Positions 862-21,815 of a stretch of DNA of 25,165 bases are shown here, piece after piece. The notes beneath the pieces are model-generated. The model was not told the DNA's origin, did no database searches, and saw only the letters and a list, made by a program, of their open reading frames with translations. Each line of letters starts with the position of its first letter. Position 1 is the stretch's first letter. Position numbers and translations under genes: made by a program. Source of the stretch: a virus; IMG/VR virus record IMGVR_UViG_3300027621_000458, positions 1-25,165 of that record. One strand, 5' to 3'.

Positions 862-1347
862 CCCGATTACCCAGACGCTGGCACGGAACTGGGTTCTGGA
901 AGTTCAGACCTTACCTCAAATATCAGTGCAGAAGGCAACGATATTGATGGCACATTCCACTCTGAAAACATTAGCGTAAGCATTGGTACTTACGATTGGA
1001 TTGATTATGCTGATGGTACTGGCGGCTCTTACACCACTAGTGGCAACAATTACAACGCTGACGGAACTATCTATACCTATTCATATGGACTTGTCGTAAA
1101 CCTTTCATGGGCAGTTACTGACGGTGGAGGGTCTTACACTGGCATTACCCCAGTCGCACTTAATGTGCCTACTTGGGTCTTGTCTTCTGGCGTTGTGTCA
1201 AGTGGACCTACTTCCTTCATTGACAAACTGTCTGAAGGTTACATTATCTTTGAAACCAACGACTGGTGGAATGGCGAGGCGAATGTCAAAACTCGTGTTG
1301 AATACCAAAACGGTGGTGGATACATTACTACTACAATTACCTTTTAA
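1..1347 (+). CDS. Cys-rich modular tail/adhesin-like protein (5' partial)
   Basis: The reading frame is open from base 1 to the TAA at 1345-1347, so the first visible Met (base 91) is internal and the true start lies upstream. About 448 residues are visible. They hold at least three full and one partial copy of a module of about 87 residues with a W-T/S-x-C entry, a central 'HDG'/'ADG' turn, a Cys-Cys pair followed by alternating Val/Tyr, and a closing D-x-C followed by Pro in three of the four copies. After about residue 290 the Cys-rich pattern stops and a Gly/Thr/Tyr-rich, apparently beta-rich C-terminal part follows. The position before tail genes in a late operon, the repeats and the extreme Gly/Tyr/Asn/Ser content suggest a surface-exposed tail fibre, appendage or capsid decoration protein. 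That role is inferred from context; I do not recognise a named family. Adjacent to the next gene with a 2-base gap. Confidence 0.7.
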   Translation: MFYDTGCCQVHYDGGTSYYIVDNCNPPCPPMGPTGSTRTVNPSSFQWTGCSESGTFDYAGDIEDEWHDGSCGYYWQQNGTWTASDGQIIFQNGANNCCTVVYTSYNNSYQVNDSCCAESGTEIRTETSDSTLNWSSCDNSGTWVYNTATTVYYADGNCGEYSAGSNYEQPVGTVIYDNGCCQVYYQGSAGYGVTDNCGPPNPPSGEATGNTGTQNAQTFNWTGCGTSGSADYYYENTTEYHDGMGGTYWSMGSSWTASFGDSIYDGGCCVVNHNGTGGYYENDTCAPPDYPDAGTELGSGSSDLTSNISAEGNDIDGTFHSENISVSIGTYDWIDYADGTGGSYTTSGNNYNADGTIYTYSYGLVVNLSWAVTDGGGSYTGITPVALNVPTWVLSSGVVSSGPTSFIDKLSEGYIIFETNDWWNGEANVKTRVEYQNGGGYITTTITF

Positions 1348-1349
1348 CC

Positions 1350-1556
1350 ATGAGCACCGAAAAAAAGAAGTTCCCTATTCCGAAGGGCTGGAACGCCCTT
1401 TACAATCCTATTGAAAAGAAGGTGTATGTTTGCCAAGATTTTCCCAGTGGAGGCTCGGCTAACTCCATCCTTCTTCTAATCAACAAGCCTAGCAAGGCAG
1501 AATTGCTTAAGGCTTTTACTGACCTTGGTCTTTCTTGGACCGCACCTGCCGCTTAA
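1350..1556 (+). CDS. Small phage protein of unknown function (68 aa)
   Basis: I do not recognise this family. The 68-residue product starts with a Lys-rich segment, then a compact globular-looking stretch with W15, Y-N-P and V-Y-V-C, and ends in an amphipathic helix (about 48-60) and a Pro/Ala tail. No membrane segment or signal peptide. It starts 2 bases after the previous stop and ends 6 bases before the next start, so it is probably translated as part of the late structural operon. The ATG lacks a Shine-Dalgarno sequence but has the A-rich context TTTTAACC-ATG, similar to other starts here. It may be a small tail accessory or chaperone-like protein, but only position suggests that. Confidence 0.65.
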   Translation: MSTEKKKFPIPKGWNALYNPIEKKVYVCQDFPSGGSANSILLLINKPSKAELLKAFTDLGLSWTAPAA

Positions 1557-1562
1557 TATGAA

Positions 1563-3446
1563 ATGGCAGATTCTAATAACAGTATCAGAAAAAAGCAAGG
1601 CGATTTTCAGTTTCTGTCTATCGACACTCGGAGCAACGGTACGGCTCTTAAAGAGGGCGTGTTACAAGACGGCAGAAACATTCGTCTTGAACTACAGTCA
1701 CTGGAAACAAGAAAAGGACTAAAGCAGTTCTTTTCCGACACCATCAAGGGAATCATTCTCCCTGCGGCTGGTGATGCGATTATTGCTTCTGGCGTAAGGG
1801 TTAGAAAGGATGGCACTGAAGAAATGGTGCTTGTCCTTAACGATGGGCTGTATCTGTACAACATGAACTCGTCTTCCCCGATGAGTTCTAAGTACAACTT
1901 CCCGACTGGCAGATTTGCTATTGAAGGGAAAACACAGGTTTTACAGGCAGTTAATAACATTTACATCCTGCGTGGTGAGTCTGAGTCTTTTAGCGAAGGC
2001 ACTTCTGACCACCAATCCAATGGCGTTGGTCAACCTTGGGTTATTGATGTAACCACCAACCTTCCGCACGGTCTTGCTATTGGTGACGAAATTATCCTTG
2101 AGTCCTTGCATGACGAGATGAGTGGCACTTTCCTTGTGCTGTCTTTAAATGGCACAAATGGTTTTAGGGTAAACAGCAACTTTGCTTCTGGTGTGCATGT
2201 TGACAAGGCTATTTTGGTGTGCAAAGGAAGACCTCCGCTTGTTTTTGATGGTTTTAGCGTAGACCTAACAGACCAGCATACAATTGATGGAAGCGTTGAT
2301 GGAAACTCTCAGCATTGCAGTTTTCCTCCATCCTCTAACGGTATCTATTTTAAGAACAGACTGTACCTCAAGTATAGCCGTGATGAAATTGCGGTCTCTT
2401 ACTACCTTCCAAACGAACAGGGAGACTGGGAGTTCGACCTAACCATCCAAGCCTTCCAGATTAACTCTGGTGATGACCAAGAGATTGTAGGATTCTACCC
2501 TTGGAGTGGCAACAAGGTTCTAGTTCTAAAGACTAACAGCATTTACGAAGCCATTATTTCGGACAATACGACAAGCCCAGAGATTGTGCTAAGTCAGTCC
2601 TCCGTTAAGGCTCTTACTAACGACATTGGTTGTGTAGCCAAGCGGTCTATGGGCAATGTGTCTGGCTCTGTGTTCTTCCTTTCTGGCTCTGGGGTTTTTG
2701 CCCTTGAACCGCAACTAGATGTCCAACTTATTGCCAACACCTTTCCGTTGTCAAAGTCTGTCCAGAAGTATGTTGACCTTATCGATGTAAACAACTCATA
2801 TAAGGCTGTAGGGCAGATTTTTGCTGGTCGGTACTACCTATCTGTCCCTATCGTTCTAGACGGAGTGTCAAGAATTAGCGTATTCGTTTACAACCTTAAC
2901 AATCGAAACTGGGAGTCTGTCGATACCTATCCGATTGGATTTAATATTGATAATATATTGGTAGCCAGATTTGGTAGCCAAAAGAAGTTGTTCTTCTTAG
3001 ACAATAAAAACGGTCTATTTCTGGCAGAAGAACTGGATGTTGACCAATTTGGCAAGACCAGAGGTGCAAAGAAGTTACCTCAATGGGTTACATTTTACCT
3101 AAACGAGTACGAATTTGACTTTAGCAACATTCAAATGTACGCCAAAACCAGACAGTATAACTTTCAAACCCTACAGACCAAACGGTTTGTTGCATGTGAA
3201 ATGTATGCAAACTATGGACTTGATGGGGCTATTGCCGTTACTGCCCATACCGTCAACCCAGATACTACAGTATTGGCTGACATTTCTACCGCCTCTTACG
3301 GAGAAGAGTTGACTCGTGCTTTCCCGCTTAGAAAACAGGGTACTTCTATTGAATTTGAGTTGACTTCGCTTCAAGGCAGACCAACTGTTTTCACCATTAC
3401 TACCGAAGCCACTGCTTCTGGTAGAGACTTAAAGAGCGAAATCTAA
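1563..3446 (+). CDS. Tail nozzle / tail tubular protein B-like structural protein
   Basis: This 627-residue protein begins with a short polar leader. A segment around residues 20-60 reads as 'leader - N - R - T-R-K-G-L', which recalls the start of podoviral nozzle proteins (T7 gp12-like, P22 gp10-like), where an early 'asn ... R-x-G-L' loop precedes a beta-rich body. The rest is almost entirely predicted beta strand with repeated short hydrophobic-aromatic strands, such as 'YLYNM', 'IYILRG' and 'GRYYLSVPIV', compatible with a beta-propeller or barrel platform. There is no membrane segment. It sits between the modular adhesin and a collar-domain fibre, upstream of the ejection proteins, as nozzle genes do in T7-like phages. 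Family assignment is by resemblance and context only; another baseplate or tail hub protein is possible. ATG at 1563 lies 6 bases after the previous stop, without a clear Shine-Dalgarno. Confidence 0.5.
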   Translation: MADSNNSIRKKQGDFQFLSIDTRSNGTALKEGVLQDGRNIRLELQSLETRKGLKQFFSDTIKGIILPAAGDAIIASGVRVRKDGTEEMVLVLNDGLYLYNMNSSSPMSSKYNFPTGRFAIEGKTQVLQAVNNIYILRGESESFSEGTSDHQSNGVGQPWVIDVTTNLPHGLAIGDEIILESLHDEMSGTFLVLSLNGTNGFRVNSNFASGVHVDKAILVCKGRPPLVFDGFSVDLTDQHTIDGSVDGNSQHCSFPPSSNGIYFKNRLYLKYSRDEIAVSYYLPNEQGDWEFDLTIQAFQINSGDDQEIVGFYPWSGNKVLVLKTNSIYEAIISDNTTSPEIVLSQSSVKALTNDIGCVAKRSMGNVSGSVFFLSGSGVFALEPQLDVQLIANTFPLSKSVQKYVDLIDVNNSYKAVGQIFAGRYYLSVPIVLDGVSRISVFVYNLNNRNWESVDTYPIGFNIDNILVARFGSQKKLFFLDNKNGLFLAEELDVDQFGKTRGAKKLPQWVTFYLNEYEFDFSNIQMYAKTRQYNFQTLQTKRFVACEMYANYGLDGAIAVTAHTVNPDTTVLADISTASYGEELTRAFPLRKQGTSIEFELTSLQGRPTVFTITTEATASGRDLKSEI

Positions 3447-3448
3447 TC

Positions 3449-4201
3449 ATGGCACAAATTAATAGCGGTTGGACATATGAATCTAGCGGTATTAAATCTG
3501 AAGTTACGGCTGAAAACCTTAACGCTCATGTCAATAATGCTGAATTGGCTGTTGGAGCCATTAAGGACCAAGATTCAAGCCTTTTATCCACTGATGCGGA
3601 CGAACTGCTAATTGCACAGGGAACTGTGCTTGTTCGTGTAACTAAGGAAAACTTCACCAAAACAATCAACGCTACCACAATCACTGCAACTACGGTGACT
3701 GCCACCCAGATTAATGGTGGTTCAATGGTTCCGATTGGTGCAATTATCTTATGGAGTGGCACGGTAATTGCACTTCCTGTTAATTGGAAGATTTGCGATG
3801 GCACTAGTGGTACGCCAGACCTTCGTGGCAAGTTTATCAGAGGTTCTGACGAACGAGTGTTAATTGATGGTGTAGCAAATATTCCCAAGTTAACTGGCAC
3901 TACTGGCGGTGCAGATAAGATAACAATTACTGGCTTACAAGTACCCAAACACACACACCAAATCTCGATTCGACAGATGCCGCAGGTAAACTATTACGGC
4001 AGTTCTGAAACTCGCCTTATTGATGTTGCACCAGTCAACCCAGATTTTAGCGATGCATATACTGGAGGAATTAGACATGTTGGACCTCCCCTTGCTTATC
4101 CTACCACGACCCCAAGCGGTGCTCCAATTCCAGAAACCGCAACCCCTCTTGAAATTCTTCCTTCATACTATTCTCTCGCATACATTATGCGGGTTTCCTA
4201 A
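3449..4201 (+). CDS. Tail fibre protein with phage tail collar domain
   Basis: The 250-residue product has an N-terminal helical region (about 1-65, possibly trimerising), then a Thr-rich strand repeat 'T-I-T-A-T-T-V-T-A-T' at about 74-86. A typical phage tail collar domain (PF07484-like) follows: 'PIGAIILWSG', then W-K-I-C-D-G-T and P-D-L-R-G-K-F-I-R-G at about 94-132. After it comes a 'GG-x-D' plus 'K-H-T-H-Q' His motif at about 155-172, as in the receptor-binding tips of short fibres such as T4 gp12, where such His residues can bind metal. The C-terminus ends in a compact 'L-P-S-Y-Y-S-L-A-Y-I-M-R' strand, the usual end of this fold. Likely a trimeric, surface-exposed fibre involved in host attachment. 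Starts 2 bases after the nozzle-like gene. Confidence 0.8.
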   Translation: MAQINSGWTYESSGIKSEVTAENLNAHVNNAELAVGAIKDQDSSLLSTDADELLIAQGTVLVRVTKENFTKTINATTITATTVTATQINGGSMVPIGAIILWSGTVIALPVNWKICDGTSGTPDLRGKFIRGSDERVLIDGVANIPKLTGTTGGADKITITGLQVPKHTHQISIRQMPQVNYYGSSETRLIDVAPVNPDFSDAYTGGIRHVGPPLAYPTTTPSGAPIPETATPLEILPSYYSLAYIMRVS

Positions 4202-4225
4202 CATCAATATGAGAACTTTAAACTA

Positions 4226-5074
4226 ATGGGACTAGGTTCACTTATCGGTGGTCTTGCCTCCAGACCAAAGGACATGCCATTGCCAAAGACCTACGGAGAG
4301 GTCGGCAATCAGAACATTGACATGCAGAGAGGCTGGCAACAGAACTATCTTGATTCTGAAGGTCAGTATAGACCTAAGTGGCAGGGGCTTAATGAGGCTA
4401 CTTTTGGCAGTCAATTGTTTGGTGGTAACGGCAACGCTGGTTATCTGAGCATGCTTCAGCAGACCAAGAACCAGAGCATGGGAATGCAGGAGGATTTTGG
4501 CGGTGCTCAGTTGAGCATGATGGGTAGACTTCAAGGTGCGGCTAGAAATGCGTACATGAGTCCCCTCATGCAGGGTGCTCAGAACCAGATGTACAATCAA
4601 GGCATGCAGTACGCTTCTGGCGAGTTGAGTGCTCAAGACAGATTTCAAGCAGGTCAGACTGCAAACATGGCTATGGCTGGTAGAGGTCTTAACGGAAGAC
4701 AGGGTGTAGCCGCCAATGTGCTTGGTAATTATGGCATGTCGCAGGACAGAATAATGCAGGGTAACAAGATGCTTCAAGGCGTGTTTGCCAATGAGCAAGG
4801 TATGGCTGACAATATTGCTGGGCTTACCCTTAGCGGTCAGAAACAGATGGGCTATTCTGCTGGCTTGTATGGTGATGCTCAAAAGTCTCTTGGTCAGTAT
4901 AACAACGGTATCTTTAATCCCGAATCTGAGCGTGGCTTCTCGCAGGATGCGGCTCGTTATAAGGCTGATATTTCCAACAGATTGGCTCAACAGCAATGGA
5001 AGGCTGGCATGTGGAAACAGGCTGGCAACATGCTGGATGATGGCTTTTCATCTGCATTTGGAGGATTCGGCTAA
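4226..5074 (+). CDS. Putative internal virion (core/ejection) protein, gp14-like by position
   Basis: The 282-residue product starts with 'MGLGSLIGGL', a short hydrophobic Gly-rich N-terminus seen on small ejection proteins. The remainder is very rich in Met, Gln, Gly, Ala and Asn ('MQ', 'GMQ', 'QNQM'), with predicted helices from about residue 60 to 200 and a C-terminal helix ending in a Gly/Phe tail. No enzymatic motif. In T7-like phages a small membrane-active protein (gp14) precedes two larger core proteins (gp15, gp16). Here the following genes encode 680 and 3665 aa, so I infer the same role, forming the part of the ejection channel nearest the outer membrane. Sequence similarity to gp14 is not claimed. 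A 24-base gap precedes it, and its stop overlaps the next ATG as TAATG. Confidence 0.5.
   Translation: MGLGSLIGGLASRPKDMPLPKTYGEVGNQNIDMQRGWQQNYLDSEGQYRPKWQGLNEATFGSQLFGGNGNAGYLSMLQQTKNQSMGMQEDFGGAQLSMMGRLQGAARNAYMSPLMQGAQNQMYNQGMQYASGELSAQDRFQAGQTANMAMAGRGLNGRQGVAANVLGNYGMSQDRIMQGNKMLQGVFANEQGMADNIAGLTLSGQKQMGYSAGLYGDAQKSLGQYNNGIFNPESERGFSQDAARYKADISNRLAQQQWKAGMWKQAGNMLDDGFSSAFGGFG
5060..5064 (+). promoter_or_regulatory. Strong Shine-Dalgarno (GGAGG) for the 680-aa gene
   Basis: GGAGG lies 9 bases before the ATG at 5074. It is notable because it is one of the very few good Shine-Dalgarno sequences in the window. It sits inside the end of the upstream gene and supports the TAATG-coupled start. 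Confidence 0.7.
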
Positions 5075-7116
5075 TGGCTGAGTCGTACATCGATTCTAAT
5101 CTGCTTGCTTGGCAGAAGTCTAATGTTTCTCAATCTCTTGAGGGACCAGAGGCTTTTGGTAAAGAGCGTGAAGACCAGCGTAAACAGTATGAAGCACTGA
5201 AGCAACAGCGTGAGCAGTTGATTGGTGCGGCTGAAGGACTACAGGAGAAGTACGGTGTCAAGGGTGATGCGGCTCCTTCTTACATCCATAAGTTCTTAAA
5301 GAAGTCCGAGTCCAGTGGTGGCATCAGCAATCTGTCTACGCAGGACATTGGGAAGTTCCTAATGACCCACGAGGTTATTCAGAAGCAGACGGAGCAGGAC
5401 GCTAAGATTGAACTGCAACAGGCTCAGTCACAGGCACAAAGGGCGGCGGCACAAGCAACCGTTCAGAAGTCGGCTGAAGACAAGGTTAGGTTTGATGCTG
5501 AACAGAAACTTAAGGCGTTCCTTGATGAAATTACCAACACTGACATTGGCAAGCCTACTGAAAGCGTTGAGGTTCCTCGTGGCGTTGGCGTAAAGAATCT
5601 AAAGGTTGGAGGCAGAGACGCTACCGACCAAGAAAAGTATATGATGGGCGTTGACCAGAACAATGGTGAAGTCATCGACAAGGATAAATTTGAGTATGCG
5701 GCTAAACTTACTGGAGCCAAACTTTCTGAACTGCTTGGAATCTCAAGCACCCCAGAACAAATTACGCAGACTGACGCTCAACTTGCCAATGCTAGACGAT
5801 TCTTTAGAGACAGTCTTGGTATCAGCCCAGAAGAAGCGTTTGATGCTGGCGGTGAAAGACCTAAAAGCGTTGACGGAAAACCAAGTCCTGTAGACAGAGG
5901 TTCTAATGGTGTCAAACTGTTTAAGACTATTATGGAGGGCGGTGTTGGTGGGGTATTCAAAAAGGCTTTCCCGACTGGAGTGCCGCAGTCATACAAGGGG
6001 GTTCCCCTTGCTAGTACTTGGAATTGGTCTGGTGGTAGAACCAATGCTCTAAACGATAAACAAATTGATGCCCTACAGGAATTCTTTAAAGAAAGTCTTA
6101 TTAATGCTGGTCAGACCGAACTGGCTACTCTTGGTCATCACACTCAAGCCGTTGCTAAGGAAGATAAAGCGGCTGGAGACATTGCTATTTCGTTTGAGAA
6201 GGCTGGTCTGTTTGAAACTGTTCAGCAGGAAATCAGAGATGGTAGCACTCTTGCCAGCATGCGTTATCAGAAGGCGGCGGCAAGATTCAAGGCACAGGGT
6301 CTAACTATCCCCATTCCAGAATCTGCGTATATGATGAGTGCAGTTCCTCAAACCGTTAAAAGCGTTCCAGAGTTTGGTTCTGATGGCAGACCCAATGGGA
6401 AGTATCAGACATTTATTAACATTGGAACTGCGGCTGAACCAAAGTGGCATCCCGCTAACCAAAAAACAAACGAATTAAAGACTGACACTGAAAGAGCACT
6501 TAGTGAAACCGTTGCTACTAATCAATTAAATGCCAGAACTGTTAAAGGTTCTTATGGAAGCATAGAAGTTGACGGCATGGTTACACGAGAGCCTAGTGAT
6601 AAATCCGTTGGGGAGTTATGGGAGGCTCTTGGAGCCGTTGAAGCATTTGAACAAAATGTTGATGGTCTTATTGAACTTCATAGAAATTATGGTCCATTAG
6701 ATAAAATGGGCTTAGACCCTAGGGCTAAAATTCTTTACGCTCTTAAGTCAACACTTACACAGGCTGTTGACCGTAAAACCCTTGTTGGACCAAGTGCCGT
6801 TACTGCGGATGACCAAAAGAAACTTGACGAACTTACTCAAAACCCAGAAAGATGGATTAGTTGGTTTAGTAAAGAAGCAAACATTGAGGCACTTGAACGC
6901 CTTAAGGATATTGTAATTACTAAAGCAGAAATTCAGATGCGTATTTCTGGGGTTCGTAGACCAGATGGTCAAAAGGCATATCAAATTAAGGGTCGCTCTG
7001 AAGGCGTGTCTGGTAAGGCGGCTGAGTATATCTTGGCACAAACTAGCGGTGCGAAACTTAACGCTCAACAGCAAAAAGTTGTTGATGATGCCAGAGCCGC
7101 TGGTAAGATTAAATAA
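5074..7116 (+). CDS. Putative internal virion protein with coiled coil, gp15-like by position
   Basis: The 680-residue product has no recognisable enzyme motif. Residues about 20-65 and 95-150 are Gln/Glu/Lys/Ala-rich and strongly helical, with runs such as 'EREDQRKQYEALKQQREQL', and probably form coiled coils. The rest is mixed alpha/beta and soluble, ending with another helix 'AQQQKVVDDARAAG'. No signal peptide or membrane segment. Between a small Met/Gln-rich protein and a giant protein, it occupies the place of T7 gp15 (about 750 aa), the tubular ejectosome component that helps pull DNA into the cell. Inference from order and size only. The start overlaps the previous stop as TAATG and has a GGAGG ribosome-binding site. 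Ends 3 bases before the giant gene. Confidence 0.5.
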   Translation: MAESYIDSNLLAWQKSNVSQSLEGPEAFGKEREDQRKQYEALKQQREQLIGAAEGLQEKYGVKGDAAPSYIHKFLKKSESSGGISNLSTQDIGKFLMTHEVIQKQTEQDAKIELQQAQSQAQRAAAQATVQKSAEDKVRFDAEQKLKAFLDEITNTDIGKPTESVEVPRGVGVKNLKVGGRDATDQEKYMMGVDQNNGEVIDKDKFEYAAKLTGAKLSELLGISSTPEQITQTDAQLANARRFFRDSLGISPEEAFDAGGERPKSVDGKPSPVDRGSNGVKLFKTIMEGGVGGVFKKAFPTGVPQSYKGVPLASTWNWSGGRTNALNDKQIDALQEFFKESLINAGQTELATLGHHTQAVAKEDKAAGDIAISFEKAGLFETVQQEIRDGSTLASMRYQKAAARFKAQGLTIPIPESAYMMSAVPQTVKSVPEFGSDGRPNGKYQTFINIGTAAEPKWHPANQKTNELKTDTERALSETVATNQLNARTVKGSYGSIEVDGMVTREPSDKSVGELWEALGAVEAFEQNVDGLIELHRNYGPLDKMGLDPRAKILYALKSTLTQAVDRKTLVGPSAVTADDQKKLDELTQNPERWISWFSKEANIEALERLKDIVITKAEIQMRISGVRRPDGQKAYQIKGRSEGVSGKAAEYILAQTSGAKLNAQQQKVVDDARAAGKIK

Positions 7117-7119
7117 TCA

Positions 7120-10100
7120 ATGGCTAATCAATTACATTTTTCTGATTCTACTAATGAAGAAAGAATTCAGAACGACTTTAAGTTTCTTGATGCCCTTCAG
7201 AAACCAGTTGCTACCACAAACAACGAGGCTCCTGTTGACCAAGCAGAAGAGGATGATAAAATCGGTGAGCGTGAGGCTTACATGATTGGCAACTACGGAC
7301 CTCAAGGATATGTTTCGTCTCCTCAAAATTACCCTAAGTACTTAGAGTGGAGGAAGAAAAACCAGCAGGGGGCTTTTGCTACGATTACTGATGCAATTGG
7401 TCATGCCGCTGGCACTATGCTTGGTGGTGCTTGGGACATGGTAAAAACTGGGGATATTGCTAAACCGCATACACTTGCGGGTACGGCTATTGAAGCCGCT
7501 TATACTGGCACTCAGTACTTCCTAAACATGATGGATATCATTAAGTATGACCCAGCCAGCCCTATTCACAGGGCATTGTTTACTACTGGAACTCCAGAAC
7601 AACAGTATCAAGATTACCTTAAACTGTCTCAATTTAATAGAGAAATGTTTGTCGTTGCCGAAGAAGGCAGGTTCATTCCTCGTGAATTTGATGTCGGTGG
7701 AGTTAAACTTAAGGGTTTTAATAAGGCGGCTGTGGCGGGTGGTAGCATGGTTCTAGACCCTAGCGTATTATTCCCTCCGCTAAAAATTGGTGGTGCTGTT
7801 GCCAGAGCACTTGGCAAGACCGCTATCGCTATTGAGTTGGGAGAACACATGGGTAACGCAATGGCTAAGGGTTCGATGCAAGCCGAAAAGATGGCTCTCG
7901 CTGTTGAAAAGAGGGCGGCTCAGACTGCTGGTATTGGAGAAGGCGTTTACAACTATGTCGGCAACAAGATTGAAAACCTTTTTGGCATTGAGAACATCAC
8001 GACTTCTAACGGAAAGATTGTACCTAAAGAGCAAATTCTAAGAACGGCACAGGGTGCTTTGTTTGGCACTGCCCTTCTTCATCTGCCTTATGTTGCACCT
8101 GCGGCTGGTCTTTGGGCTACTGCAAAGGTAACAGAAGTTGCGTCTAGAACTATCGCTGAAGCCATTTCTCATTCAAGAACCCCACACTATCTAAGTATCG
8201 CTGAACGCCTTGCTTACCAGTCCCCCGATGCTGGTGTTCGCACGATTGGCAAGATGGCTAATTTCTCCAGCGGATTTACGGACCACCTTGGAAGAATGGC
8301 ACAAGCCTCTTTCCATGGCTCTATGTATGGTGCTGGTTTTGGTTATGCCCTTGGCGGTGAAGAAGGCATGTATCATGGTATTGGTACTGGTATTGGTCTT
8401 GGCGGCTCCATGCACCTGCTTGGTTCCGTTTACGGCATCTATGGCAATAGAAGCAAGAAGCAGATTGATAATGTGATGAAGCACTTTGCTTATGTCGCAG
8501 AAGGATTTGATGCTCCTAAGAAAGAAGGCGTTCAAGTCTTGCTTAAAAATGTAAAGGACCAGCATGGAGACGAGGCTATGTACAAGGTGATGGCTGGTAT
8601 TGCCGCCACGGAAAGACTTCAGAAGAATGGTACGCACCTTATCCTTACTACTGAAAGGATTAAAGAACTTCTTAGTGATGCCGATTGGCAGGAGTACTCA
8701 AAGGAACTTAGCAATCCACAGTTTGGTGGCTACACTACCAGACGAAAAGACGGAAGAATCTTTACTATTATTAACGCAGACTATGCGGCTCCGTCCGCTA
8801 TTTCTGGAGAATTGTTTCACAACGCACTCCTTAATGACAGATACGGCTCCCTACTGAGAGAGCATGTTACTAAGGGTCTCCTTGGAACTGAAGACCATGA
8901 AGGGTTTCTATTTAAGATGCCGTTGGAAAAGCGGGTTGCCCTTCTTGAAAAATTTAGAGATGCGTACATGGAGTTGGACGATACCTCTCCTAACGATGGA
9001 GCACAGCGAGCCAACCTTAAGCAGTTCAATGAAGCGATTGAAGAGGTAAGACAGGGAAAGAAGCCGTCTACCCTTTATCCAATCTTTGAAGAACTTGCGG
9101 AGTCTTACTTTGGAAAGTACATTAAGGATAAGCCTATTGATTACCTGCTCCGTGGCGACAGCCCCCTTAATAACTTTGGAGACATCGTTTGGAACTCTGC
9201 ACTTGATACGGTCCACAGACTGATGAAGCACGATGTCGAAGCCGCTGGTGGCAGAATTCAGTTCAAGGCTGGTAACCCAGAGGGGTTCTTTTTAGACTCC
9301 AAGGGTAAGCGTGTCATTATTCCCGAACTTGACAGAGTAATGAAGATGGTCGTAGACAAGATGCGTAAAGACTCTGAGACTGTTAGAGGATTCCCTGCTA
9401 GAAAATCTGGAGAACTTACTGGCAACGAGATTACTTTTAAGGAACTAGACCACCTTTATAAGGATGACGGAACTGGCAAGATGGTTAAGAAGACCGATGC
9501 CGAGTACAACGCAGAGCAGGAAGGTAAGTTTACCTCGTTCTTTGCCAGACATGCAAAGATGGACCCAAGCAATAAGGGTCTTAGATTTACTGAAGTTGGA
9601 AGCGATGAAGAGCAGGGTGGAGTTGGCTCTTTTATGCCAGCATCGAGAAGACCTAACCTTAAGGCTACCAAGAAACTCATTGCTGAAAACAATGCGGAGT
9701 ACGAAAGAAACCAGAGAGAACTTGAAAACGCTGAGAAGCGTAAGGCTAGAGTTCTTGAAAAACAACAGAAGAAGGGCACTGAATTTACTGACGATGACCT
9801 TGAGGGTGCGGCTGACGAGGCTCGCTTTGAAGGTGCGAAGCATTTCAAGATTAGCGGATACATGACTGAAGCGGAGAAGACTTTGTTCACTGATATATTC
9901 GGGGCTACGATGGCTAACAGAGTATTTGCCCTTACCAGAACTATCCACTCCAAGGGGATTGACGGTAACAATATTTTGCAGTTTGTTTACGCAAGCGACA
10001 AGAGACAGAAGTTTAATTTTGACACCAAGGGAAGACCCACTGGCGAAGACAACACTCGCTATGAAGGTGCTGAAAAGGAACGCCATATCCTGCCTTACGA

Positions 10101-13100
10101 AGTTGTCCTTAAGTTTGAAAGAAAGCGTCTGACTCTCCTTGAGAAGGAAGAGATGGACCTTGAGGACACCGATGTCATGTACAAGGTTGGCAAACCTCAG
10201 TTGATGGTTAACGGTATTGATTACTACGCCATCGACAGACGAGTGAACTACATGTTTAACCACATGAGACCCATGGATGCCGCTAGGTCGGTAGGCTCTG
10301 GGTATGTTAAGTCCGTGTACGCAAGCGAAGCAGAGATGCATTTTGACATTAAGCGTCTGTTGAGCAACTACAGCAGAGGCGAGGTTGCCATGGCTGGTGC
10401 TGACTTCTTTGGTGGCGGCAAGGTTGGCAGAGCAAGGCGTGACATTATTAATGCGGCTATTGGTGCTCACCCTCCCAAGGATGGCTTCACCGAAAGTTAC
10501 ATGCAGGAAGAAGGGTTTCATTATCCTTTGCATGCTCAACTTAGAAACGGACATATGAACGAGGCGTTCACTCCGTGGACTTCTCTTAGACTTGATAGAA
10601 TCAGTGGCAGAATTAACCACCTACAGGGTGAAGGATTCTTCTATGACCATGAATATGCCTATGCTAAGGCACAGGGTAATTACGCTCCGAGAACAAGAAT
10701 GATTCCTACCAGTTTCAGCGGTCAGCCAACCAATGGAAGAATTTCACTAAGATACGAAGAGCCTGTTGGTGCTGATTTTGCAGGTAAAAAGAACCAAGGG
10801 ATTATTACTAGGACTAGGAATAACACTTACGGACGAAGAAGAGGATATAGCAATGGAGTTCAACTTGTGGACAATATTGACCCACTTCAGTTGATGTTGG
10901 TTAGAATTGAAAACAGGGCTTCGGACCCAGCCCAACATGCCCAGCGTGGTGGAGACATTACTTCCTTGGATGGATACATTCATGACATGACTAATGTGGG
11001 TCATCGTTTGGGGGCGGGTCCAGAAAAGGTTGGAGAATTTAACGCTTCAATTATGTCAATGGATAGGGCTATTTTTGAGGGGTATTTAATGAGACAGGGA
11101 CTTCCTAAAGAAATACGAGACCTGCAAAGAGGGTCTTACATTGGTGAGACTTCAATTGAATCACCGTACCAAAGCCTTGGACTTGGAAATATGTTATATT
11201 CTGAAGGTCTAGAACACCTTAGAAGAAGAGGTGTTGAGTTTCTTCTTTCTGGTGTAATCAATAAAGATGCCGAACCTATTGCACAGCGTATCAAAAGATT
11301 TGGGCAAGAAAATGTGTGGGGCGATTTTTCTACTACATATGGTAAACCAGATTGGCAGATAGTCTCTAAGGTCGAAGCAAAAAACCATATTGGACTTTAT
11401 GGCAATATGCGTATTCTTGCTAAAATGGTTGCACCACAGGGCGGCTTCCAGCCAGTCCAGCGTCACCAGCGTGACCACCACGGCTACCAAGTTTCAGCCT
11501 CTGACTCTATTCACATGGAGGATTCTGCGTTCAAAACTCCTAGTGGTGAGCCGATGCGTATGTATGCGTCCAATAAGATTGGAGCCTTTCACATTAGCCA
11601 GTTCGATGAATCTTCCGCTGTTACCAGATTTAACCAACACTCTGTTGGCTATCTGAGCGTAAGACCAGAAGAGATTCTTGACATCACTGGTAGCGGAAAT
11701 GTGACTCACGATTACCTTAATAGATTTGATGCAAAAGATTTAAGAAACAACGGCTTTAGAGCCATCAAGTTCCAGCACGAGGGAGAGGTCAGCGTTGCCT
11801 TTACCGATTTCCAAGACTTTAAGCAGACTGGCGTTAGCCTTTCTGACATTGTTAGCGGCAACTTTGCCCCAAGACAGAAGAAGAAACTCACCTTCCAAGA
11901 ACAGGTTGACCAAGAGGCTAAGAATATTCGTATTCAGATGTCTGAACTTGTTAAAAATAAGGCTGAAGTTGAACAGCGTAGGCTGGCTTTGATTCGTAAA
12001 TTGCAAAGAGCAGAAGGACAGGCAAGAAAGGACAGGGTTAAGGTAGGAAGCGATGAGCAGATGAAGGCTCAGAAGCAACTTAGAGTATCGCTTCAACAGT
12101 TGGACGATATTGAAGCCAACGCCACGGTAATGAAAAGTGTGTTTAGAGACTCCAGTATTGACTTGGTTCGTGCTGGCAGACCTAGCCTTGCTGTCATTGC
12201 TTCTCTGAGTGCTAGTGAGTACGCACGGTATAAGGAATACAAAGAACTACCAAGCGACATCCATAAGCGTCATGTTGAGATGGTTGATGCTGTGTTGATG
12301 GACCATTGGATTAGAAGAAGTGCCCTTAGAAAAGCATCTGCTACAAGAAAAGAAGCGTTTGATGCAAGCGAAGCGGGCAGAGAGGCTAAGGCTATGCAGT
12401 ACGAAGCAGACCTTAAGAAGTTAGAGGAAGAATTGATTACCTCTCTGTCTGCCTACAGAATGTTTGACATTGCGGACACACTGCTTGGCACTGTTCCTAC
12501 CACGGAGCGTATTGAACACAGGTCTAGATGGGAAAGAGACAGCAAGGGTAACCCGATTCCCTCCACCTTTGAAGATGTTAACGCAGAACAGGGTAGAGCA
12601 ATGGGTATTACCGACATCCCAGAAGGAAGAAAATCTGGAAGAACTGTAAAGGAAAACTTCACTTTGCTTGATGCGGCTTACCAGACGATGACCGACTCTG
12701 CCGCTGGTGATGGACATAGAAGCCCTACTCAGCGTTTGATTATGCTGACACAGGCACTTGCCAAGCAGTTTGAAATCGAAGGAAAGGCTACCCCAGAATT
12801 TAAGGCAAGACTTGAAGAGATGCGTAAACAGTTTACCCAGACCTACGAGTTAACTAACACCAATCTTAGAAAGTCTGCGGCAGAAATCCTTAGACATGGT
12901 CTGCACTCCCTGCGATGGACCGATGAACTTGAGTTCAATAAACAGGACAACCTTGGAAGATGGTCCAGAAGTGGAGATGTTGTTCGTTCAAGCCTAGGAA
13001 CCTCTGGTCACTATGTGAAGCAGTACAGACCAGAGATGCCAGACATTGGTCTTAACTTTAGAAAACTTAAACTTCCACCTTCAATGAAGTTTGAAAAGAC

Positions 13101-16100
13101 TACTATCCAAATTACTGGCAGAAAGTCTGGAAGCCAATATGTCAGTGAGGCTGGTCTTGCAGACCACATTGAAGCATTCAGAAAAGAACTCATGGCAACG
13201 GTGACTAGGAATGACACTGGAGATGGTGCTGAAAGTCATACTGATATTGGAGACTTCATTAAGGATGCCAGCCCACAAGAAATTGCTGACATTGCTTTCT
13301 CTAAAAAGGGATGGGAAGATTGGGATGGTATTGACGAAGTCCGTGCTGGAAGAAATGGAAAGCGTATTAGAGACTTTGCAAGAGGAGAGAGGAAGGTTAC
13401 CACCTATACTAACAACGCACAAATCCTTTCCCATGAAGGCAGACCTAACATAGCAATTTTATTCGAAAAGGGTTCAGATGCCCCTTGGGAATTTGCAGAC
13501 GGTAGAACCATGTTCCCTTCTGGTGCTGACACCCTCCGTGTTGTTCCAATGAGTGAAGTCCAATTTGTGGAAATTGAAGGCGTTAAACATTACTATTGGA
13601 ATAAAGATTCAACTCTCAGCGGAGAATCCAAATCCAAGGGCTTCAGAAACTTTGACGATATGTTGCTTGAATACGATGGCATGAAAACCATCGCCAGACT
13701 TACCTATGGATACAAGAAGGGTGAGTACACGGCACACCGTGCTAACGGCTGGAAGATTACGGACAAGAAGTTTGCCTCAATCGAGGAAGCCAAGCGAGCC
13801 GCTATCATTGACCTGCATGAAAACAATTCGGCTGATGTTGTGTTCCAAAGTCTTAAGCGTGTTAGCGATGAACAGGCTGATTCAATCCTTAGACTGATTA
13901 GTCACGAAACCGACATTGAATACGAGAACCCTAACACTCAAAAAATTGTTAAGAAGAAGGTTCCTAATCCAGACTACAGACCAGACCTGCCGTCTGGTTT
14001 GGGTCAGAATCTAGAGTTTGTTGACGAGAGAAAAACGATTAAGGCTGGCGATGCTCTGCCCGAATGGAAGAAACTAGCCGTCTTTAAGTCTGGAGACATG
14101 CTGTTGGTTACCTCTGACAGTAGGCAAGACCTTGTTAGTAGCGTTGCTAGAACCAAGAAAGGAACTAAGGCTAAAACCTCTGATGTTCTTGGTCAAGCCG
14201 AAGAAGCCAGCGGTAATTTTTCCTCAAAAGCGATTGGAGATGTGTATAAGATTCTCTTTGATGACGCTGGAAATTTCGTTGGCATCGACAGAGTTGACAG
14301 ACTTACCACCGTTGAATCATTGAATCAGTGGGTTGGCACTATGAGCGACCCTCAGACTGCTTCCTTTGAAGCGGTTAGGTCTGTTGCCGATAGGCTTTCC
14401 AAGCAGTTTGCAGAAATTATCAAGCCCAAGTTTGTTGAAGAGAGAAAGAAAATTGCCAATGTTTTGATTAACAATCCGAAGTTGATTAAGGCTAAGGTAG
14501 AACAGCAGAGACAGATACAGGGTGAAGTTCTTCAGCGACTCAAGGAAAGAGGCATCAAGGATTTCAAGCAACTAGAAAAGGCTATTACAGACCTTGACGG
14601 TCCGCTTGAACAATTGGCAAACAGGCGTGACAGTCATTTGCTATTCTTAATTAGAAGAGGTTACATTCTAAAGCCAGAGGTAGTTAGACGGCTTCTTAAA
14701 GATGGAGTGTTTGAAAGTATTGATGACCTAAAAACTCAACAAGCGTGGGTTGATGAGCGTAATCGTTATGACAGTGCGTCAATTAGAATTCCAGATGAGT
14801 ACGCTGTTGCTGACCAAGGTGCTATTTCACAGGGTGACATGGCGGCTCTAATTGAGAATGCACTTTCTGAGGTTAAAAGGGCTAGTGATGAACAGATGCT
14901 TCCTCAAGGTAAGCAAGAAGTCCTAATGGACATTCAAGACAAAATTAAGGGAGAGTTATTTCAACAACTCGTTAAAGAAATTGAAGACCTTGAACTCCAG
15001 TTGCATGCCGCACAAGGTGGCAAGGTTAACCAAAGAAGTGCATTGGCTGAAGCAAGAATTGGCAAGAAGCGTGGAACGGTAAAGCAGATGACTGAGGTCG
15101 AGTGGGAGACCTATAAGATGGAACTGGCTCGTGAAAATAAGCCCGCCCCAGAAACCGAGGTAGCCCTATCTGAATATGAAGCAAAGGTGACTATGAATGT
15201 AGCACCAAGGCAAGATTTTTATACCATGCCTAGATTTATCCCGCTTGAGGGAGAGTCCTATCTAAGCCCTCATAAGATGCATGCAAGATTTAGACATGCA
15301 ATGGCAGACATGATTGGCTTGCACAAGGCTACCATTGATGAAGGAAATCCAAACAGAGTTAATCTTCATGACTACCTTCATGACGATGGATTGTTTGACA
15401 TCGCAGACGATACATCAACTAGGCGTGACATTATTCGTGAATCAAATCTTCATGTTAAAGGAAACGCTGGTGGACTCATGGCTTGGGACAAAAGCCCAGA
15501 AGGAATGGATTTTAAACTTGCCGCTAATAAGTTTATGTTTGATGAGTTGGGACACAGAAATGCTAAGGCTAGTCTTGAAAAGAAACTTGCTCTTCAAGAA
15601 CAAGACCCCGCCAAGAGGGACGCACTACTTGAACAGTTGTTTGCAGATACCCAACGCAGATACACTGCCACATGGAAGACTAATGTTGACAAAGTAAATG
15701 AGGCTTTTCTAAAGTTACCAGAACCATTAAGGGTGCAGTACGAAGACTTCCTACGCCAGCAGGGTGACAATCTTGATGTTACTAAAACCCGCCTACTTGC
15801 AGAGACTGCTGAGTTTATTAGAGAGGCTACCGCTAGACAGGCTGAAATGGATGCAAGACTTCAAATCTCATTAAAGAAGTTTCAAGAAATGGGAATCACT
15901 TCTGACCCAATGCGTGTTTTCTCTCAAGACCACAAGTACCAAGCAATTTTCCCCACTCTTTGGCAGGAGTTTTATCCGACTAGGGCTGAAATACAGAAAG
16001 GTTCTCAGCGTACCAAAGCCGTCAAAGAACACACTGGAGAAGCCATTGTTATGGAAGAGGCTGAAGGAGGCAAGAGACCTGTTCAATGGCAGTCTGGAGC

Positions 16101-18117
16101 AGAAAGTACTTACGAATTTGATGCAAAGACCACGATGAGAATGGGGGATGTTATTGGTGGTCAACTCTCCATTGACAGCGTTCTTAAGAATGTTTCTGAC
16201 GGAGAGGCTATTGAAGGGCAGATTCGTGCACTCCGTGGTCTAAGAGAAATTGACTTGTTCGATAAGGCTCTTGCCCATGCCAATAGACTACAGTCTGAAT
16301 ACAAGAGAACTGGTCAGCCTGTTGGTATTGACGCTGAAGACTTGAAGTTGGTAAGTCTTTATTTCCCCGACATCATTAAGGAAGACGGTCCTAATCATGT
16401 GCCTGTCAGAGATACTTGGAGGGCTGAATATGAATCCTCTTTGAGAACAATCTCTCCCGATGCTGACAAGAATCTGGAAGTACAGAAGGTTAACACCCTC
16501 TACAATCACTGGGTCAAACAGGCAATGAACGACCAGCAAAAGATGTACCTTGCTATTGCAAGAGTCAGTGGTGAAGCAAGGCTTGCAGAACTTACCAGAC
16601 CAGAAAATTTGGTTGGAGATAGGATTGATTGGAGCAAACTTAAACTAGAAGAAGCGGATTACATTCTTCACACCATCCCCCAAATCAAGACTGGCATTGC
16701 CAAGTACACAAGTTTGTCGGAACTGGTTTCTAATCCAGAATACATTGGCTACATGATGTCTGTGTTCAGCGATGAGGCAGGTAATATTAACAGTATCTTC
16801 AGTGGGCAGGAAGCCAACATGAAGACAAAGACATGGCTTGGTCTTGCGGGAGATTTGAAGGCTAGAAATGCAAGAGGTCTTGTTGACACTATTGACCAGA
16901 CTGGTGACCAAATTGCCAGAGAGAACACTACCCAAGCGGGTGCAGATGCCTCCATGGAGAGTGCCGAGGCTTGGTTTACTGGCATTGAACAGGCACTAAC
17001 CCAGCAAGGTCGTGACAAGATTACTGCCTCACAGCAGGTTCTTCTTGGGCTGGCTAAGACCGAGTCTGCCGTTAAAGTTTACAAGGGAAGAGTAGAACAG
17101 TTCCTTGCCTCTAGACCAGACGCTAGGGCTAATCTGTTGGCACTTAATGATGACCTTAAACTTATCTCTGCTAACCCAGAGCCAGTAAGCACTCAACTTA
17201 AGTACAACGACTTTGGTATGCCAGAGATTGTTAACCCAGATATCACCGATGCGTTCTTCAGAACTCCTAATGGAAAGTTTGTTGCCTTTAAGCACGGAGA
17301 CATGTTCAAACTATTCTTCACTGGTGAGGATAGTGAGATTAAGGTTCCTCCTTCTCATGTGATGACTGCCCCAGACCTTGAGCGAATCCAGATTGGTATT
17401 CGATTCTTTGCTGATGACATTCGTTCCGCACAGGTTCTTGCAGTCCAAGAGTCTGGTCAGCCTGTTATTCCTTCCAAGCAACTTGGCTCTTATAGTAAGA
17501 ACTTCTTTGATGTCCACGGTGGCTCACTACCCCCGCATGTTATTGAAGCCCTTACTGCTGAACTGACTAAGATTGGTCAGTACTCCGAGACCACCTACAT
17601 ACAGACTGGCGGCAACAAGCGACAGATTACCATTTACCCAAACACCGAGGTCTGGGACAGACTGCACAACGGAGACTACGAGAAGGTCAATGGCTCTTGG
17701 AAACTTAAGGACGATGTGGTTGCGGCAAGACAGCAACTCCTTGATAGCAACAAGGCTCTTGCAGAGCAGAAGACACAGACCCCCGCCCAGAAACTTGCTG
17801 GCGGCTCTGGCAGAGGCGTTGCCAGCGGACCCCCGCCCACCGTACCTCACGCTGACAGGGTTGATGCCAAAACAACTTGGAGTGTTGTTAAGGAAGGTAA
17901 TATCATGGTTGGAGACAACCCTAAGCCAGCCTTCCAAGACTGGACCGCTGTACAAAACAGTGAGGGATTTGTAATCCTAAGAAAACAGGCTATTGATGCC
18001 AGAAACAGGTGGACAAGTCACTTTGTTGTGTTTAGTCCTGCTGGTATTATGATGTCGGAAGAGAAGAGCGAACAGGAGGCGGTGTCATCCATCTTTAAGA
18101 ACCATGGCTTACGATAG
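7120..18117 (+). CDS. Giant multidomain virion/ejection protein (3665 aa) with GNAT-like and ART-like segments
   Basis: One uninterrupted frame encodes 3665 residues. Residues about 308-336 and 400-442 are Ala/Gly-rich and hydrophobic, candidates for membrane insertion during DNA ejection. Residues 563-567 read G-E-L-F-H, a possible remnant of an HExxH metallopeptidase helix. Residues about 1308-1400 resemble a GNAT acetyltransferase: a strand-helix, then L-G-L-G at 1353-1356 followed by a long helix, strand, 'N-x-x-A' and a terminal 'RFG'. Residues about 1455-1571 resemble a degenerate ADP-ribosyltransferase (ART-PolyVal/MuF C-terminal-like): 'TPSGEPMRMY' near 1473-1482, 'FD', then 'GFRAIKF' and a final 'F-T-D-F-Q-D-F-K'. 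A coiled coil follows (about 1573-1672). The last domain (about 3588-3665) sits behind a Pro/Gly linker (3547-3587). Position matches T7 gp16, but gp16 is about 1300 aa and N4 virion RNA polymerase about 3500 aa. I see no N-terminal transglycosylase and no convincing polymerase motif. Probably packaged and injected. Confidence 0.8.
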   Translation: MANQLHFSDSTNEERIQNDFKFLDALQKPVATTNNEAPVDQAEEDDKIGEREAYMIGNYGPQGYVSSPQNYPKYLEWRKKNQQGAFATITDAIGHAAGTMLGGAWDMVKTGDIAKPHTLAGTAIEAAYTGTQYFLNMMDIIKYDPASPIHRALFTTGTPEQQYQDYLKLSQFNREMFVVAEEGRFIPREFDVGGVKLKGFNKAAVAGGSMVLDPSVLFPPLKIGGAVARALGKTAIAIELGEHMGNAMAKGSMQAEKMALAVEKRAAQTAGIGEGVYNYVGNKIENLFGIENITTSNGKIVPKEQILRTAQGALFGTALLHLPYVAPAAGLWATAKVTEVASRTIAEAISHSRTPHYLSIAERLAYQSPDAGVRTIGKMANFSSGFTDHLGRMAQASFHGSMYGAGFGYALGGEEGMYHGIGTGIGLGGSMHLLGSVYGIYGNRSKKQIDNVMKHFAYVAEGFDAPKKEGVQVLLKNVKDQHGDEAMYKVMAGIAATERLQKNGTHLILTTERIKELLSDADWQEYSKELSNPQFGGYTTRRKDGRIFTIINADYAAPSAISGELFHNALLNDRYGSLLREHVTKGLLGTEDHEGFLFKMPLEKRVALLEKFRDAYMELDDTSPNDGAQRANLKQFNEAIEEVRQGKKPSTLYPIFEELAESYFGKYIKDKPIDYLLRGDSPLNNFGDIVWNSALDTVHRLMKHDVEAAGGRIQFKAGNPEGFFLDSKGKRVIIPELDRVMKMVVDKMRKDSETVRGFPARKSGELTGNEITFKELDHLYKDDGTGKMVKKTDAEYNAEQEGKFTSFFARHAKMDPSNKGLRFTEVGSDEEQGGVGSFMPASRRPNLKATKKLIAENNAEYERNQRELENAEKRKARVLEKQQKKGTEFTDDDLEGAADEARFEGAKHFKISGYMTEAEKTLFTDIFGATMANRVFALTRTIHSKGIDGNNILQFVYASDKRQKFNFDTKGRPTGEDNTRYEGAEKERHILPYEVVLKFERKRLTLLEKEEMDLEDTDVMYKVGKPQLMVNGIDYYAIDRRVNYMFNHMRPMDAARSVGSGYVKSVYASEAEMHFDIKRLLSNYSRGEVAMAGADFFGGGKVGRARRDIINAAIGAHPPKDGFTESYMQEEGFHYPLHAQLRNGHMNEAFTPWTSLRLDRISGRINHLQGEGFFYDHEYAYAKAQGNYAPRTRMIPTSFSGQPTNGRISLRYEEPVGADFAGKKNQGIITRTRNNTYGRRRGYSNGVQLVDNIDPLQLMLVRIENRASDPAQHAQRGGDITSLDGYIHDMTNVGHRLGAGPEKVGEFNASIMSMDRAIFEGYLMRQGLPKEIRDLQRGSYIGETSIESPYQSLGLGNMLYSEGLEHLRRRGVEFLLSGVINKDAEPIAQRIKRFGQENVWGDFSTTYGKPDWQIVSKVEAKNHIGLYGNMRILAKMVAPQGGFQPVQRHQRDHHGYQVSASDSIHMEDSAFKTPSGEPMRMYASNKIGAFHISQFDESSAVTRFNQHSVGYLSVRPEEILDITGSGNVTHDYLNRFDAKDLRNNGFRAIKFQHEGEVSVAFTDFQDFKQTGVSLSDIVSGNFAPRQKKKLTFQEQVDQEAKNIRIQMSELVKNKAEVEQRRLALIRKLQRAEGQARKDRVKVGSDEQMKAQKQLRVSLQQLDDIEANATVMKSVFRDSSIDLVRAGRPSLAVIASLSASEYARYKEYKELPSDIHKRHVEMVDAVLMDHWIRRSALRKASATRKEAFDASEAGREAKAMQYEADLKKLEEELITSLSAYRMFDIADTLLGTVPTTERIEHRSRWERDSKGNPIPSTFEDVNAEQGRAMGITDIPEGRKSGRTVKENFTLLDAAYQTMTDSAAGDGHRSPTQRLIMLTQALAKQFEIEGKATPEFKARLEEMRKQFTQTYELTNTNLRKSAAEILRHGLHSLRWTDELEFNKQDNLGRWSRSGDVVRSSLGTSGHYVKQYRPEMPDIGLNFRKLKLPPSMKFEKTTIQITGRKSGSQYVSEAGLADHIEAFRKELMATVTRNDTGDGAESHTDIGDFIKDASPQEIADIAFSKKGWEDWDGIDEVRAGRNGKRIRDFARGERKVTTYTNNAQILSHEGRPNIAILFEKGSDAPWEFADGRTMFPSGADTLRVVPMSEVQFVEIEGVKHYYWNKDSTLSGESKSKGFRNFDDMLLEYDGMKTIARLTYGYKKGEYTAHRANGWKITDKKFASIEEAKRAAIIDLHENNSADVVFQSLKRVSDEQADSILRLISHETDIEYENPNTQKIVKKKVPNPDYRPDLPSGLGQNLEFVDERKTIKAGDALPEWKKLAVFKSGDMLLVTSDSRQDLVSSVARTKKGTKAKTSDVLGQAEEASGNFSSKAIGDVYKILFDDAGNFVGIDRVDRLTTVESLNQWVGTMSDPQTASFEAVRSVADRLSKQFAEIIKPKFVEERKKIANVLINNPKLIKAKVEQQRQIQGEVLQRLKERGIKDFKQLEKAITDLDGPLEQLANRRDSHLLFLIRRGYILKPEVVRRLLKDGVFESIDDLKTQQAWVDERNRYDSASIRIPDEYAVADQGAISQGDMAALIENALSEVKRASDEQMLPQGKQEVLMDIQDKIKGELFQQLVKEIEDLELQLHAAQGGKVNQRSALAEARIGKKRGTVKQMTEVEWETYKMELARENKPAPETEVALSEYEAKVTMNVAPRQDFYTMPRFIPLEGESYLSPHKMHARFRHAMADMIGLHKATIDEGNPNRVNLHDYLHDDGLFDIADDTSTRRDIIRESNLHVKGNAGGLMAWDKSPEGMDFKLAANKFMFDELGHRNAKASLEKKLALQEQDPAKRDALLEQLFADTQRRYTATWKTNVDKVNEAFLKLPEPLRVQYEDFLRQQGDNLDVTKTRLLAETAEFIREATARQAEMDARLQISLKKFQEMGITSDPMRVFSQDHKYQAIFPTLWQEFYPTRAEIQKGSQRTKAVKEHTGEAIVMEEAEGGKRPVQWQSGAESTYEFDAKTTMRMGDVIGGQLSIDSVLKNVSDGEAIEGQIRALRGLREIDLFDKALAHANRLQSEYKRTGQPVGIDAEDLKLVSLYFPDIIKEDGPNHVPVRDTWRAEYESSLRTISPDADKNLEVQKVNTLYNHWVKQAMNDQQKMYLAIARVSGEARLAELTRPENLVGDRIDWSKLKLEEADYILHTIPQIKTGIAKYTSLSELVSNPEYIGYMMSVFSDEAGNINSIFSGQEANMKTKTWLGLAGDLKARNARGLVDTIDQTGDQIARENTTQAGADASMESAEAWFTGIEQALTQQGRDKITASQQVLLGLAKTESAVKVYKGRVEQFLASRPDARANLLALNDDLKLISANPEPVSTQLKYNDFGMPEIVNPDITDAFFRTPNGKFVAFKHGDMFKLFFTGEDSEIKVPPSHVMTAPDLERIQIGIRFFADDIRSAQVLAVQESGQPVIPSKQLGSYSKNFFDVHGGSLPPHVIEALTAELTKIGQYSETTYIQTGGNKRQITIYPNTEVWDRLHNGDYEKVNGSWKLKDDVVAARQQLLDSNKALAEQKTQTPAQKLAGGSGRGVASGPPPTVPHADRVDAKTTWSVVKEGNIMVGDNPKPAFQDWTAVQNSEGFVILRKQAIDARNRWTSHFVVFSPAGIMMSEEKSEQEAVSSIFKNHGLR

Positions 18118-18589
18118 ATTTAACATTCCACCTTTTTTGCTGGGTTCTTACAATCCTGCATTCCCACCCCTTAGAGCACCAAAACACACGCCCTACCCAA
18201 TGCGTAACCTATATCCAACAGAAACAACATTCTTTTTAAATAACCCTACTGTGTCTGGAATGGCGGCTGAAGATGGTTCTGTTATTTTTAATCCTTCTTG
18301 GGCTGAAAAGGCAACACCTTATCAAAAACAAGGACTATATTATCTTGAGGCTTCTCGTCATCATATGAAAACCGATGACTCTTGGAGAGATGTCGAGTTC
18401 ACTCCAGAGCAAGAAAAGTATTTTAAGTCTATGGGTGATAAGTATTATTCTAAGTTAGGTGATTCGACAAAGCAAACCCTTGTAAGCAGAATGATTGCGG
18501 GTGATGAAATCCCAGATGCTCCATACACAAACGAGCAACAAAAAATTGCAGATAAAATTTGGGGCAATATGATTAACCATGGAAGATAA
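18104..18589 (+). CDS. Conserved late phage protein of unknown function (161 aa)
   Basis: The 161-residue product has a Pro/aromatic N-terminus (to about residue 45), then 'G-M-A-A-E-D-G-S-V-I-F-N-P-S', a helix with 'Y-Y-L-E-A-S-R-H-H-M', 'F-T-P-E-Q-E-K-Y-F' and a C-terminal 'T-L-V-S-R-M-I-A-G-D-E' helix. I recognise this layout ('EDG-VI-NP', 'LTPEQ', 'RI-x-GD') from unannotated proteins encoded just after internal virion proteins in many podo- and other phages; no function is known to me. It overlaps the end of the giant gene by 14 bases and the holin-like gene by 11, so it is translationally coupled. No signal peptide or membrane segment. Confidence 0.7.
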   Translation: MAYDRFNIPPFLLGSYNPAFPPLRAPKHTPYPMRNLYPTETTFFLNNPTVSGMAAEDGSVIFNPSWAEKATPYQKQGLYYLEASRHHMKTDDSWRDVEFTPEQEKYFKSMGDKYYSKLGDSTKQTLVSRMIAGDEIPDAPYTNEQQKIADKIWGNMINHGR

Positions 18590-21734: not shown

Positions 21735-21743
21735 GGCGTGGAG

Positions 21744-21815
21744 TGACCCCTCCAAGAATCGAACTTGGATAACCCGCTTAGAAGGCGGGTGTTCTATCCG
21801 TTGAACTAAGGGGTC
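21744..21815 (-). tRNA. tRNA-Arg (anticodon UCU)
   Basis: A full cloverleaf folds on the minus strand. Acceptor stem GACCCCT pairs with AGGGGTC (7 pairs, one end A discriminator at 21744). D stem GTTC/GAAC has a GG-containing loop. The anticodon stem CCCGC/GCGGG holds loop CTTCTAA, with TCT at positions 34-36. The variable loop is short, and the T stem CCAAG/CTTGG holds loop TTCGATT. No CCA is encoded (CTC follows), so the host must add it. Anticodon UCU decodes AGA and, by wobble, AGG. It sits inside the operon, 7 bases after the ERF stop and 9 bases before the next ATG, so it must be cut from the polycistronic transcript. Confidence 0.95.

Follow-up and report, generated by a model that had tools for sequence, protein, structure and literature searches.

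What kind of protein is encoded by a single reading frame that fills nearly half of a viral contig? The question is raised by the window (the whole 25,165-bp stretch of viral DNA analysed here, a complete IMG/VR-type record from an uncultured virus), of which 43.7% is occupied by one giant ORF (Table 1). The stop-free single gene that the original prediction had described over 44% of the window was found intact at 3665 aa. It makes up about a quarter of the phage genome, which is estimated at 45 kb, begins 3 bp past the preceding 680-aa gene, and shares its last 14 bp with the next ORF (from 18104).

Table 1. Features of the giant gene and of the genes upstream of it (positions in the window; residues of the giant protein).
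Feature	Residues	Position	Strand	Remark
Tail-tube/head-closure-like protein		1563-3446	+	27% identity to 'head closure Hc3' of Phage C75C1
Tail collar fibre protein		3449-4201	+	phrog_1800, E=1.3e-17
282-aa gene, small member of putative ejection triplet		4226-5074	+	assigned by position
680-aa gene, middle member of putative ejection triplet		5074-7116	+	directly upstream of the giant; assigned by position
Giant ORF	1-3665	7120-18117	+	3665 aa, about 406 kDa; ATG start, no in-frame stop
Gly/Ala-rich N-terminal region	1-480	7120-8559	+	clade-wide (GSMYGAAFGY..GGEEGxYxGxGTG)
Zincin-like segment	526-700	8695-9219	+	motif level
GELFH, reduced HExxH	563-567	8806-8820	+	
Conserved core, no known domain	801-1195	9520-10704	+	no fold match
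Block absent from sister giants, contains GNAT	1196-1436	10705-11427	+	
GNAT segment	1300-1436			core match 1338-1402
Acetyl-CoA motif QSLGLG	1351-1356	11170-11187	+	
Candidate degenerate ART-PolyVal-like domain	1437-1600	11428-11919	+	
Charged regions, no recognised domain	1601-3199	11920-16716	+	
C-terminal region	3200-3665	16717-18114	+	conserved in wider subclade

Direct searches with the giant against Pfam, PHROGs, NCBIfam, PADLOC and the PDB gave no significant match. The giant's counterpart on a 45,104-bp contig, of 3656 aa, is 84% identical over the full length and is set in the same gene order; comparison of the two yielded an overall dN/dS of 0.13 (0.097/0.733). Values for individual parts ranged from 0.06 to 0.20 across all segments tested; the N-terminal chassis was lowest and is the most conserved part (0.06), and the GNAT segment was among the least conserved (0.19). 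Because dN/dS is low in every segment, the whole frame must be translated and under purifying selection. The giant ORF is a real gene and not a chance frame.

The order of 282-aa gene, 680-aa gene and giant, from which the original prediction had likened the giant's position to that of T7 gp16, is present in the window, and the same succession of small, medium and giant genes recurs in its relatives, as in T7 and N4. T7 gp14, gp15 and gp16 are three ejection proteins, and N4 likewise has an ejection triplet (PMC12633501), encoded in the order gp52 (16.5 kDa), gp51 (66 kDa) and gp50, the virion RNA polymerase (vRNAP). Neither the 282-aa nor the 680-aa protein significantly resembled a known ejection protein in sequence, gp52 for the former and gp51 for the latter included. 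Downstream, a holin-like gene (phrog_6384, E=2.7e-4) lies 0.5 kb from the giant, and genes for an Erf annealing protein, a DnaC-like loader, an exonuclease and a metallophosphoesterase follow on the opposite strand. A tRNA-Arg gene (anticodon TCT; 21743-21815, minus strand) is found amid these recombination and replication genes. The ORF that overlaps the end of the giant (18104-18589, plus strand) encodes 161 aa and is absent from the closest relative, L002, in which the holin-like gene comes directly after the giant. The related 45,104-bp contig has candidate ORFs for portal, terminase and capsid where these would be expected; position and size are the grounds for naming its portal and capsid, and its terminase is supported by a 31% match to that of Phage C75C1 and by weaker ones to annotated large terminases.

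To what clade does this gene belong? Scans with a tail-tube alignment and with an alignment of the giant's N-terminus yielded 80 and 29 loci, respectively, which were then extended. In about 50 related contigs a giant ORF, homologous or at least syntenic, comes at the end of the same series: a tail-tube-like gene, a fibre gene, then genes of ~280 and ~680 aa. At 56 loci, which overlap and represent about 50 distinct contigs, the giant is preceded by a gene of mostly 620-890 aa at a distance of -44 to +19 bp, and at 53 of these a further gene of about 160-390 aa stands ahead of the medium one. The giants themselves range from 2081 to 4096 aa, and other modules were recognised in some of them, namely ART-PolyVal (E=1.7e-16) and a ParB C-terminal domain (E=9e-41). 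No relative of the window giant was found among named phages (a collection of 50,697 records); GTDB genomes gave pattern matches, but no relative of the giant. Two of the contigs are irregular. One of 88,287 bp (L124/G034), about twice the usual size, has a second giant frame of 2590 codons with a weak GNAT match at 61863-62087 and is possibly two genomes joined. In L123 (giant frame 3705-14165), the tblastn match begins at 2770, about 310 codons ahead of the listed ORF, so that the N-terminus of this giant appears interrupted or mis-assembled.

Within the giant, the clearest module is an acetyltransferase domain. A GNAT fold had been predicted at about residues 1308-1400, and this range falls inside the segment that we delimited at 1300-1436. 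Taken alone, the window giant scores 14.0 bits against PF00583, in register and below the cut-off of 20.7. Six-frame searches of 32 related records with the same profile returned 15 matches, all of them within giant frames and in two records above the cut-off, and scans of single giants gave 43.5, 31.1 and 47.5 bits for L103, L107 and L111, all above it. When a profile of the window segment and two homologues was compared by hhalign with eight GNAT segments from these relatives, the probability was 97.6 (E=2.8e-12); when 504 chunks taken from other giants were scanned, the best 16 scores all fell on GNAT sites (38-55; median 12.8). The motif A consensus (Q/R)xxGx(G/A) is intact in the window as QSLGLG, is conserved in L002, and reads RGLGGS in L088. 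On these sequence and profile comparisons, residues 1338-1402 are a GNAT acetyltransferase domain.

This domain is not shared by the sister giants. In L121, L140, L122 and L123, the region around residue 1195 runs directly into the ART-like domain, and no GNAT was detected at the window's position in any other giant of the wider subclade, the sole match (in the 88-kb contig) lying in a different frame. Since a block of ~240 residues is missing from all sister giants, the GNAT was probably brought into the window giant by one insertion of that size. The more distant phages L103, L107 and L111 carry at least two GNAT copies each, at ~1990-2930, far from the position of the window GNAT.

The segment that follows, residues 1437-1600, is conserved among the sister giants, and its assignment differs between sequence and predicted structure. 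It showed no sequence match to PF18760; hhalign against PF18760-positive segments of other giants gave a probability of 0.7%, and a chunk scan with the segment did not rank ART sites first. In contrast, its AlphaFold model (mean pLDDT 62; mostly 70-86 in the central part) matched phage proteins in a viral fold library with E-values of 3.7e-5 to 5.3e-4, among them a 'PolyVal ADP-Ribosyltransferase', an 'ART-PolyVal-like' protein and the vRNAP of a Roseobacter phage. The same model gave no significant match in a PDB fold search; the hits included tankyrase (PARP) domains and ART-like toxins of toxin-antitoxin systems. For the PolyVal ART clade, a catalytic His on strand 1, part of an H-Y-D configuration, has been described (Iyer 2017, PMC5512222). 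This His is missing in all ten homologues compared, where A, V, T or another residue takes its place. We conclude with moderate certainty that residues 1437-1600 represent a decayed ART; as the sequence tests were negative, the support comes from fold comparison. The degenerate ART originally proposed at about 1455-1571, within this segment, finds support in the predicted fold and none in the sequence.

A third module lies within the chassis. Eight more distant giants have an intact HELFH, HEIFH, HEALH or HELAH aligned to residues 526-700, with a preceding strand that ends in 'IN' and an EE downstream. Across the window's own subclade, G or E stands in place of the first His, and E564, H567 and E657/E658 do not vary; the window thus has GELFH in place of a full HExxH and keeps the downstream EE (657-658). 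No zincin fold was recovered for this segment in Pfam, PDB or fold searches, and no giant frame matched MPTase-PolyVal (PF18818) above the curated cut-off. We therefore identify the segment as zincin-like at the level of the motif, from the HExxH/E geometry of the relatives, and the lost HExxH ligand points to a segment no longer active as a peptidase, if it ever was. No domain could be assigned to more than half of the giant, and most of it has no Pfam match. PXR and FadR, returned by Foldseek for a model of residues 481-1200 (E about 0.4, TM 0.07), were dismissed as noise.

How are these modules to be read together? Polyvalent proteins combine MPTase, ART and GNAT domains, with the GNAT typically adjoining the ART, and the phage-type GNAT of these proteins is RimI-like and probably protein-modifying (Iyer 2017, PMC5512222). 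The same study defines them by at least two domains of disparate activity and by their encoding among virion genes. The giant has a GNAT, a predicted ART-like fold and a zincin-like segment, the latter two probably inactive, and its gene lies among virion genes by gene order in the window and in relatives. The polyvalent-protein reading of the original prediction is thereby supported. Its description of a multi-enzyme protein is probably too strong: conserved catalytic or metal-binding residues are gone from the ART-like and zincin-like segments, so that of the three recognised modules the GNAT alone, which retains its cofactor motif, is plausibly an active enzyme.

We think it likely that the giant is a polyvalent ejection protein of a short-tailed phage, the third and largest of its triplet. 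It is best read as belonging to a known type of protein, in a new family and on an unusual scale, and we infer that it is packaged and injected. As the third and largest internal virion protein it would replace T7 gp16 or N4 gp50. The predicted build is an N-terminal chassis (residues 1-1195) that includes the decayed zincin-like metallopeptidase segment, followed by the added GNAT block, the decayed ART-like segment and a long tail with a conserved C-terminus. Such a protein would probably sit above the portal in the virion, thread through the tail during infection and help the DNA across the envelope. Early in infection its GNAT would then, with host acetyl-CoA as the donor, acetylate a protein of the host or of the phage. 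Extended to the whole uncultured clade of ~45-kb short-tailed phages, the model becomes tentative, and we give it somewhat less than an even chance: the third ejection protein would always be a chassis of 230-450 kDa with swapped effector modules (GNAT, ART, ParB, HExxH peptidase-like), each phage injecting its own host-modifying enzymes, and this subclade would have added an acetyltransferase while older modules decayed.

The same data bear on a purely structural ejection protein that, like T7 gp16, forms the inner-membrane end of a DNA channel, with GNAT, ART and zincin as inactive fossils retained as spacers or folding units. The key residues gone from two modules, the stronger conservation of the chassis relative to the GNAT, and the sister giants that manage without the GNAT would all fit such a protein. 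We nevertheless regard it as unlikely: the GNAT looks later-added, is under purifying selection and retains its Q-x-x-G-x-G motif, and the presence of at least one GNAT elsewhere in other giants of the clade suggests selection for activity. Still less probable is a structural protein of the tail or of lysis, one that remains outside the cell or has a late function. The downstream holin-like gene and the upstream fibre genes would suit this role; however, almost every relative has the giant at the end of a small-medium-giant triplet, and its GNAT and the ART and ParB modules of the clade belong to families with intracellular substrates or cofactors.

Size and operon position would also match N4 gp50 (3500 aa), and hence a virion RNA polymerase that transcribes early genes. 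N4 gp50 has a HExxH segment (PMC12633501), with which the zincin-like profile of the clade aligns weakly (E 0.014). Yet the polymerase module itself found no counterpart: neither the giant nor its N-terminal, middle and C-terminal profiles matched a PDB RNA polymerase at E<=1, N4 vRNAP or its polymerase module had no match in any giant (best E about 0.5), and profile-profile comparison of the giants with that module found none. The test for a polymerase that the original prediction had called for was accordingly negative by sequence and profile comparison, and we consider an N4-type polymerase very improbable.

As a polyvalent ejection protein, the giant resembles known polyvalent proteins in its very large, multidomain build, its place in a late/virion operon, the succession of GNAT and ART-like domain, the zincin-like segment, and the exchange of domains among relatives, with ParB and ART-PolyVal modules in other clade members. 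It differs in that none of the giants matches PF18818, that conserved catalytic or metal residues are absent from the window giant's zincin-like and ART-like segments, that Pfam recognises no domain in most of the protein, and that the sequence family was not found in the named phages searched. With N4 gp50 (Schitoviridae) it shares approximate length, gene order and the HExxH-type segment, but not a detected RNA polymerase module or significant sequence similarity. T7 gp16 likewise closes a run of three adjacent genes at the ejection position and is the largest of them; the window giant is 2.8 times longer and has no PHROG or Pfam match. The nearest GenBank record found, Phage C75C1 (OQ984151), has homologous tail-tube/head-closure and terminase proteins and also a giant ORF, of about 2770 aa. 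However, this ORF comes directly after the fibre gene, is followed by genes of ~375 and 1343 aa, and has no detectable similarity to the window giant.

Polyvalent proteins are so far mostly computational predictions. With its ~50 members, constant operon position, and modules gained and lost, the clade offers a natural set for separating delivery chassis from cargo, and for tracing enzyme decay inside a putatively injected protein. An active GNAT would mean that the phage delivers a protein acetyltransferase as soon as infection begins.

At the other end of the window, positions 1-1347 (plus strand) encode a Cys/Tyr/Gly/Asn-rich protein without a match in Pfam or PHROG. It has apparent repeats of ~90 residues (DGNCGxY..., YDNGCCxV..., VNDNC), measures 539 aa in the related contig, and is possibly an adhesin or fibre.
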